A stretch of 64,000 bases of DNA, from positions 1 through 64,000 of the forward strand of contig DYJA01000006.1 in NCBI GenBank assembly GCA_020723345.1. The letters run 5' to 3'. Made by a program: the position numbers and the translations under genes. The notes under the pieces are model-generated. The model was not told the DNA's origin. It did no database searches and saw only the letters and a list, made by a program, of their open reading frames with translations. Origin of the DNA: Candidatus Aquidulcis sp. GTDB taxonomy: Bacteria; Chloroflexota; Anaerolineae; UBA4142. Within the stretch, counting starts at the first letter, position 1. Each line of letters opens with the position of its first letter. Positions 25,872 through 28,636 of this stretch are shown piece by piece.

Positions 25872-27662
25872 TCAAGCAAACTTCAGAATTCGAGTTTCAA
25901 CACTTTCGCCAGCAACGCGGTGTCTGAAATTGTCCAGAACCGTTGAGGTAATTGAAACGCGCGGTTGATAGCCAATGCTCTTCCAGAAATCACTGAGCGA
26001 CTCGAGGGACAAATCTGAGATGGCTCTGCTAACATTTACGCGCATCAAAACTTCCTTGGTGTATGGTCGCTTGGCGTCCGTAAAAACGAGCGCCGCCAGC
26101 AATTGTTTGACGTGTGCGCTGTTGAAAAGCGATGCTGCAATGAGCGCGTCTTGGTACGTGTCGAAGCCAAGAAAATAGCAGGTGTCGTCGAGCATAACAG
26201 GGCGTCCATCAATGGGACACACCAACGAAAAGTTAGATCCTTTGTACAACCCCGAGATCGCAACCTTATACGGCGCAAATGTATAGTCGCCGACTCCAAA
26301 GATCGCAAAGCGCGGCTTGCCGCGATAAATACTCGACTTGCGCCGATCCAAGCACTCGGCGTTTTTCATCAAGTACTTCCAGAGTTTCGGTGCGCTATCT
26401 TTCAACCGCGCGGTATCTTCACCAAGACGCCTTTGGGTTACGATGACTTGCTTGCGCGGCGGGTCTGCGAGAAAATGTCGAACGTCAGAACTTTTCAGTA
26501 ACCAATAACGGTATTCCTCCTCGATCTCGACTTCCTCGCTATCGCCATTGGTCAACGTTCCATCGCGCGCGTCCAATTCCATCACGCGTGCACAATCATG
26601 TTTCACGCCCTGCCGCCAGACCAAGGGCGACTTGCCATCCAAGTCGGCATTTCTTTCGTAATCCTGGACGTTCGCCACGAATCTGTCGCGCACCCAACCG
26701 AAAGTTCGCACAGTGCGCGCAGGGTCTGCCAAACTAGCAACCCGGCACGTCTGCTCCGGCGTCGTCGCGCCCAGATCCATCGCCAGCAAACACGCCTCGA
26801 CTGCCACCCCGAATTCGCGCGCCGCATCAAATTCGAGTTTGCGAATATTGGCGACGCGATATTGCTTTTGAGGTAGAACTTGAACGATGTTCTTCGCCGT
26901 CGAGTTCTTGCACAGCATCGCCAGCATTCCGTGGCAAGTCGAAAATTGATCGAGCAAGCGCAACAAAATGGACTCGCTAATGTCAAAATTGCTCTTGCCT
27001 GTGAGCGCGTCCATTCCATTCAGCGATTTGATATTTCGCTTCGTCGGCAGATTCTGCGATCCCAGAGCGCCCAACTCGGCGCTGGTCACCCATGGTGGAT
27101 TCCCAACGATCAAAATGCTCTGAGATTGCGCGACCCGTTCAGGAAATTGATGAGTAAAAATGTTATCTTGATGTAGTTCGATGTCTGCGGAAATATGACG
27201 ACCCAAGAATGCCCTAATCAACAAAACCGTTTTCAAATACCAGGCATAGTCTGACTGAACTTCGACGCCGTAAACCAATTTTAGATTGGGAAATGTGTCG
27301 AGGGCGGCGAGGATAAAATTCCCCAAGCCATACGTTGGTTCGATTACAACAGTCGGCGAGACGCCTGTTTCAGCAAGATAGTGACATACTTGTTTGGCAA
27401 GAGCGGGCGGGGTTTGAAAGTCACCCCACTCGCGATTCTTCCGGGTATTTGAGGCGTGTACAGGCGTTGCGACAATTCGACGAAACTCTTGAAACTCGTG
27501 TTGGTTCGCGAAGAAAGGCCGAACACCCGTGATATATCCCAATTCGTTATTCGCACGGCTCAAAGTCTTGTAGGACGCGACTAGTTCAGCCAAACGCGTT
27601 TGGCTTAGCTCAAGAACATGCTCTGAAACTGCCTCGGCAATGCGATGCGCCGTACCGCTCAT
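25872..27662 (-). CDS. N6-adenine DNA methyltransferase of a type II restriction-modification locus
   Basis: 596 residues. The SAM motif is IEPTYGLGNFILAAL (about residues 115-129) and the catalytic motif is GNPPWVTSAELG. NPPW marks an N6-adenine (gamma/TaqI-like) methylase, and the remaining 350 residues would be target recognition. It starts at 27662 with an ATGA overlap to the restriction gene, so the two are translationally coupled. With the endonuclease broken, it is now probably an orphan methylase. Lower G+C than flanking genes suggests acquisition. Confidence 0.85.
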   Translation of the reverse strand: MSGTAHRIAEAVSEHVLELSQTRLAELVASYKTLSRANNELGYITGVRPFFANQHEFQEFRRIVATPVHASNTRKNREWGDFQTPPALAKQVCHYLAETGVSPTVVIEPTYGLGNFILAALDTFPNLKLVYGVEVQSDYAWYLKTVLLIRAFLGRHISADIELHQDNIFTHQFPERVAQSQSILIVGNPPWVTSAELGALGSQNLPTKRNIKSLNGMDALTGKSNFDISESILLRLLDQFSTCHGMLAMLCKNSTAKNIVQVLPQKQYRVANIRKLEFDAAREFGVAVEACLLAMDLGATTPEQTCRVASLADPARTVRTFGWVRDRFVANVQDYERNADLDGKSPLVWRQGVKHDCARVMELDARDGTLTNGDSEEVEIEEEYRYWLLKSSDVRHFLADPPRKQVIVTQRRLGEDTARLKDSAPKLWKYLMKNAECLDRRKSSIYRGKPRFAIFGVGDYTFAPYKVAISGLYKGSNFSLVCPIDGRPVMLDDTCYFLGFDTYQDALIAASLFNSAHVKQLLAALVFTDAKRPYTKEVLMRVNVSRAISDLSLESLSDFWKSIGYQPRVSITSTVLDNFRHRVAGESVETRILKFA

Positions 27663-28306
27663 ACGATCTTCACAATTCCCGACACTGGTTCATTCAGATC
27701 AACGATCCTACCGTACTGCAATCGCCACTGCAATGCATTCGAAATCGTCAAATATCCCTGTGTGGGCGGCGATTGAACGATCTCGTCGGCGAGCGCGTTC
27801 AGAACAATCTCATCACCCGGCAAATTTCGATCCGCCAAAAGCGCAAACACCTCTTCACGGTTTGCATTCTCGGCGAGCAATTTGAGGATACCGCGCGTCG
27901 TTTGATAATCCGCCGTGCGGCTGCTCTCAATGAACGCGCAACTCACGAAAGTCAGTTTCGCTTTTTTCGTCCGTGGATTATCTCGTTTGTCGTACACGAA
28001 TAACAGCAGATTGTAACCGAGTCCATACACCTTTTGCCGCGCCGAGCGAAACGGACAAGATGATTGCGGCTAGCGAATGGATGTAACCTTGATGTCGGTT
28101 TCAAGCGCGGGTATGTCCAATCCCGTCGCGGAATTTCCGGCTTGGGTCTCGTACTCTCTTTCGAGTTGCTCTTGAAACGCGTGCTCGATAAAAGTGCCAA
28201 CCGCCTTGCCATCGGTGACGCCATACAACTTGGCGTAGACATGATTGCGCGCGCAAAATTGCTTTGCGGCGGTGATAAGTTCATGCTAGGTGAGCGTCTT
28301 CTTCAT
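27659..28306 (-). pseudogene. Type II restriction endonuclease gene with two in-frame TAG codons
   Basis: One frame runs from ATG 28306 (AGGAGG 10 bases upstream) to TGA 27659, overlapping the methylase ATG. TAG codons occur at 28286-28288 (after MKKTLT) and 28070-28072 (after DIKVTSIR). Between and after them the protein reads well: HELITAAKQFCARNHVYAKL, then LETDIKVTSIR, then PQSSCPFRSARQKVYGLGYN, then LLLFVYDKRDNP. Both TAGs fit CAG (Gln), so two C-to-T changes are the simplest history. The fold suits a PD-(D/E)XK-type enzyme; the recognition site is unknown. The host uses TAG as a normal stop elsewhere in the window. Confidence 0.75.
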
Positions 28307-28636
28307 TGTTGGTGAGTTCCTCCTCTTTCGCGCGCTGATATTTCTCCTCAATCATCGCCGCCAACTCTTGCTCGATGCCGTAATACATCGCGATTCGCAA
28401 CGCGGCGCGCAGTGCCGCCGTGTGATCGAATCACACGGCTAGCCAAGCCGCAAGCCCGATAGAATCGGGCTGACGCGCAATCGGCTTCCAGCCGATTTTC
28501 AGATTTGCTAGCCGCCGATTTGCAATCGGCGGCGTTCTTCGAGCAGGCACGTCATAATATGAAACGGATCGTTGCCATCGGGAAAACGGCGGTTGAGTGC
28601 GCGACAACTCGCGTACAGTTTTTCGAGTGTGTCCAT
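28281..28636 (-). pseudogene. MazG-like protein gene broken by hairpin repeats
   Basis: The first part, 28636 to 28508, reads MDTLEKLYASCRALNRRFPD and then NDPFHIMTCLLEE, with a stop formed inside a repeat hairpin. The second part, about 28430 to 28281 in another frame, reads ALRAALRIAMYYGIEQELAA and then MIEEKYQRAKEEE. Together these look like the two ends of a small MazG-like nucleotide pyrophosphohydrolase with its middle (the ExxE metal region) replaced by about 75 bases of hairpin repeats. The end overlaps the restriction gene start by 26 bases, so it probably headed that operon. The family call rests on the N- and C-terminal patterns only. Confidence 0.5.
28431..28535. repeat. Chain of short hairpins interrupting the MazG-like gene
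   Basis: Consecutive hairpins: CCCGATAGAATCGGG, AATCGGCTTCCAGCCGATT, GCCGCCGATTTGCAATCGGCGGC, preceded by GTGTGATCGAATCACAC at 28420-28436 and joined by GCTAGC words. The organisation is the same as the chain at 3515-3665. Confidence 0.6.

Follow-up and report, generated by a model that had tools for sequence, protein, structure and literature searches.

Two in-frame amber codons in a type II restriction endonuclease gene beside an intact adenine methyltransferase gene in Candidatus Aquidulcis: a probable recent loss of the nuclease

The stretch of DNA analysed here (the window, positions 1 to 64,000 of contig DYJA01000006.1 of Candidatus Aquidulcis sp., an uncultured bacterium) carries a type II restriction-modification (R-M) pair which, in all likelihood, has recently lost its nuclease and is decaying toward a solitary methyltransferase (MTase). 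The endonuclease gene (27659..28306, – strand) is interrupted by two TAG codons, and the MTase gene that overlaps its end (25872..27662, – strand) is whole. In the course of events that we propose, the pair would have been acquired horizontally, next to the 3′ end of what was a MazG-like gene, a single C-to-T change would have converted the near-invariant Gln codon 79 of the endonuclease into TAG, and a second TAG would have arisen at codon 7, probably from a Gln codon too.

The endonuclease frame and its two stop codons

The endonuclease frame runs from 28306 to 27659 on the – strand and comprises 215 codons, from an ATG start to a TGA that sits within ATGA, the overlap with the MTase start. 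Translation of the whole frame shows no frameshift and exactly two internal stops, both TAG, at codon 7 (28286..28288, –) and at codon 79 (28070..28072, –). A Shine-Dalgarno-like AGGAGG is found 12 nucleotides 5′ of the ATG (28319..28324, –), inside the end of the MazG-like remnant. When TAG is read as Gln, the frame matches the NCBIfam family NF052465 over its full length (314.3 bits for a cut-off of 290, E 2.5e-94) and the PADLOC model REase_II with 263 bits (4.9e-79), while a Pfam search returned no family and a sequence search of the PDB no relative. Excluding the stop sites, all 75 columns of the alignment that are at least 95% conserved hold the family residue. The first-pass annotation, which had described a frame with two in-frame TAG codons that was otherwise perfect, overlapped the methylase by ATGA and kept its ribosome site, and which had proposed a comparison with restriction enzyme families, is therefore borne out on all these points. 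Its family matches identify the frame as a genuine type II restriction endonuclease, full-length when read through. A functional product of the NF052465 family needs an uninterrupted reading frame, which the TAG codons at positions 7 and 79 break, and on the basis of NCBIfam, PADLOC and 80 homologues the gene is annotated here as a pseudogene. It is the single copy of the family in its own genome (6.34 Mb in 132 contigs, 95.5% complete).

The residues that preceded the two stops were sought in an alignment of the best 80 homologues. Position 79, just past the putative D71-x-K73 active-site motif and followed by a near-invariant P-Q-S-S, is Gln in 76 of the 80, encoded nearly always by CAA or CAG. 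The genome G003, of the same family, reads CGC CAG CCG CAA at this site and, since CAG stands exactly at codon 79, the passage to TAG would be one C-to-T step. Position 7 is variable, with Ile in 64 of the 80 homologues and Gln in 4; three of the five nearest homologues (L001, L003 and L004) have Gln there and G003 has His. The alignment thus makes an ancestral Gln firm at codon 79, which is near-invariant, and only plausible at codon 7, which is variable, so that the earlier proposal of Gln at both stops holds for the former but is uncertain for the latter. Both TAG codons stand in a CTAGC context (CCAGC if the ancestral codon was CAG), and among the gene's 14 further Gln or CGA codons not one is flanked by C on both sides, an observation made post hoc that may be due to chance; no CCAGC-to-CTAGC mutational bias was seen across the genome.

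The structure predicted for the endonuclease (pLDDT 88), examined for the core, the acidic residues and the D/E-x-K motif of the PD-(D/E)XK nuclease fold, contains the invariant D64 and D71-I-K73, the latter on a predicted strand spanning residues 70–76. The best structural matches of the model are NlaIV, MvaI, HincII and EcoRV (Z 7–9) and, with Foldseek E values no better than 0.1, they are too weak for a closer family assignment. In the gene as it stands, translation would end after 6 residues. Internally started products would comprise residues 93–215, devoid of the putative catalytic residues, or residues 27–78, devoid of the rest of the fold. Because translation halts so early, and because each restart product lacks the putative active site or else the remaining fold, no cleavage is expected, and restriction activity is presumably lost. 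In-frame TTG and GTG codons are present past each stop, and the enzyme could be imagined as made in separately started pieces (TTG27–78 and GTG93–215) which reassemble into an active form. However, such pieces would miss residues 1–26, with the conserved F17 and C18, and residues 79–92, with the invariant P80, Q81, S82, S83, P85 and K92; inspection by eye revealed no ribosome site for the internal starts, and a homologue split in this manner was not encountered. We give this explanation almost no credence.

The methyltransferase and the genomic setting of the pair

The gene following the endonuclease encodes a protein of 596 aa, without internal stop, in which motif I (EPT-G-GN at 108–115) and the NPPW of motif IV (188–191) are kept and in which only 4 of 100 conserved columns are altered, each by a conservative replacement. 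It matches the PADLOC type II MTase model PDLC03310 with 453 bits over residues 74–546, the N-terminal 70 residues falling outside the model, and its predicted structure (pLDDT 86) resembles CamA (Foldseek 1e-21) and M.BseCI (3.5e-20). Pfam gave only a weak hint of Eco57I. The Alw26I/Eco31I/Esp3I MTase family, TIGR02987, was considered and rejected (29 bits vs a cut-off of 353.5). By predicted fold and motifs, the protein is an N6-adenine DNA MTase of the gamma type. In nearly all of the 80 homologous loci the endonuclease adjoins this MTase, the type II R-M arrangement that is also found in the window, and the ATGA overlap recurs in L001–L003, L104 and L106. The earlier description of the methylase as intact is in keeping with the absence of stops, the conserved columns and this habitual partnership. 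No ribosome site is obvious by eye at the MTase start and, since the start also overlaps the endonuclease stop, the MTase may have depended on translational coupling, the loss of which through the ATGA overlap might lower its expression. The MTase may still methylate.

Upstream of the endonuclease lie the remains of a MazG-like gene, whose 5′ part (28535..28636, –) is separated from its 3′ part (28281..28415, –) by an inverted-repeat-rich element that replaces the middle of the gene (28416..28534, –; boundaries from comparison with G001 and G003) and of which about 22 partial copies occur elsewhere in the genome. The end of the 3′ part overlaps the endonuclease start. The gene is intact in G001 (L243:9499-9804) and in G003 (L202:2295-2606), and it is through these homologues that the remnant was recognised, a Pfam search of it giving no match; the name MazG-like is our presumption from reading the homologous sequences, with no family search behind it. 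The same-genus genome G001 shares the kinase with the window (94% identical) and has the MazG-like gene intact and followed by other genes, with neither the endonuclease nor the MTase beside the MazG-like gene, and the DNA similarity between it and the window ends at about 28322, in the last codons of this gene. Since G001 is without the pair and the similarity stops at that point, the R-M pair was probably gained by the lineage of the window, a reading that rests on the near boundary, the matching G001 contig ending at the far side.

Recent loss, readthrough or artefact

When intact pairs are taken as the reference, the endonuclease has not evolved faster than the MTase, the mean difference in identity between the two (R minus M) being 16.3 against 16.9. 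Under a simple mutation model, in which about 15% of the mutations that create a stop or alter a conserved residue are nonsense, the chance that two nonsense mutations precede any missense at a conserved site is about 0.02 if both are neutral, and it rises to about 0.15 if selection favoured the first. Because no conserved residue has been lost besides the stops, the loss of the endonuclease would be very recent. The state of the gene fits a very recent or a selected loss, but it also fits a consensus artefact. In the latter case, an error of consensus or assembly, or a mixture of strains, would conceal an endonuclease that is intact in part or all of the population, the TAG codons being errors or a minority haplotype. 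The perfect conservation of the remaining gene and its normal evolutionary rate agree with such an origin, and the assembly is a draft, split into 132 contigs and with a contamination of 2%. On the other hand, it is unlikely that two single-base errors would arise independently, both produce TAG and fall within 216 nucleotides, next to an otherwise flawless methylase gene of 1.8 kb, and the neighbouring MazG-like gene is damaged too, as expected of a decaying locus. An artefact is therefore considered unlikely, although it retains some small weight.

As both stops are TAG in a frame that is otherwise intact, amber readthrough or suppression could be envisaged, by which some full-length endonuclease would be made at a low level, whether the trait is genome-wide or a valve acting on this one gene. 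The decoding apparatus of the genome argues against it: none of the 44 tRNAs detected and typed has a CTA anticodon, the genome encodes release factor 1 (505 bits), PylS was searched for and is absent, and TAG is a normal stop, with which 140 of the 542 long ORFs end in the 764 kb that were analysed. When coding continuation past the stops was scored with frame competition, coding-like sequence on both sides was seen at 7 of 133 TAG vs 9 of 118 TAA codons, many of which look like neighbouring genes in the same frame. Furthermore, no other homologue examined has an in-frame TAG, the broken endonuclease copies in the class carrying TAA, deletions or fragments and the window copy alone TAG. Genome-wide recoding of TAG is effectively ruled out by the lack of a CTA-anticodon tRNA, the retention of release factor 1 and the absence of an excess of in-frame TAG, and readthrough at the endonuclease is very unlikely, to the point that we would scarcely count on it. 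That the two ambers in their CTAGC context were programmed, or were selected, to restrain the nuclease by regulated readthrough or reversible silencing, instead of arising through random decay, is likewise hardly believable. Recent decay of the nuclease is the preferred explanation, as the first-pass annotation had proposed, ranking readthrough below it; the intact conserved columns, the intact MTase and the lack of a detectable suppressor are in line with that ranking.

Related loci and known solitary methyltransferases

Among 396 sampled genomes of the class, the endonuclease is found in 36 and the MTase in 39. Approximately 33 loci combine a complete MTase with upstream DNA that could be read, and in 8 of them, about one quarter by our own count (G000, G017, G134, G164, G228, G242, G279 and G367), the endonuclease is broken, fragmentary or absent; in G279 the upstream DNA is readable for only about 516 nucleotides, to the contig end. 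In G364 endonuclease and MTase are both damaged. The sister of the window MTase is that of the same-order genome G017 (L182 1044-2858; 64% identical, support 96/91), which is full-length, solitary and adjoins an unrelated gene resembling those of membrane proteins. No endonuclease of the NF052465 family was found in the G017 genome, and this MTase is a true orphan.

Two further loci were examined as possible endonucleases without an MTase. The one in G119 (L203 2058-4069) was rejected as such, because an MTase of a different class, with a TSPPY motif, follows the endonuclease homologue, which has Glu at the near-invariant Gln79; the sequence of this pair suggests partner swapping. In G003 (L202 3991-4644) an open endonuclease frame, placed after small genes that by eye are BrnT/BrnA-like, has no MTase beside it, neither this one nor any other. 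R130, otherwise invariant, is missing from it together with the TISNALQWRLQY block and, because of their loss, the G003 endonuclease is probably inactive.

That solitary MTases occur next to degraded endonuclease genes is documented (PMC6471742, citing Seshasayee et al.), and work cited in the same paper finds this route to be rarer than spread by mobile elements. The view, already expressed in the first-pass annotation, that loss of the nuclease with retention of the methylase is a known route thus agrees with what that paper reports from surveys (PMC6471742), and relatives of the window show the same decay. As the overlapping MTase is whole and N6-adenine-specific by fold, the locus would lie on the path from an R-M system to a solitary methylase. 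With the only family copy in the genome carrying two stops, the MTase appears to have no functional cognate endonuclease, as is the case for an orphan MTase, and an orphan epigenetic methylase may be the outcome. The locus offers a clean early snapshot of this transition, with the nuclease probably just broken, the MTase whole and a sister lineage, that of G017, without the nuclease gene. It contributes one more example, along with approximate counts for a single class of Chloroflexota; it brings no new principle and may be seen as the ordinary wear of such systems.

Among known systems, CamA, a known orphan MTase of Clostridioides difficile, and M.BseCI have the adenine MTase fold in common with the window MTase, at an identity of only about 14%. 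The endonucleases of NF052465 and of PADLOC PDLC03454 share with the window gene the full length, all near-invariant residues except that at the stop site and the endonuclease-MTase order, and the window alone adds two in-frame ambers. Finally, the solitary MTases described in PMC6471742 are, like that of the window, intact and adjacent to an inactivated endonuclease, whereas the decay in the window, as read from its sequence, would be at a very early stage and amount to two base changes.
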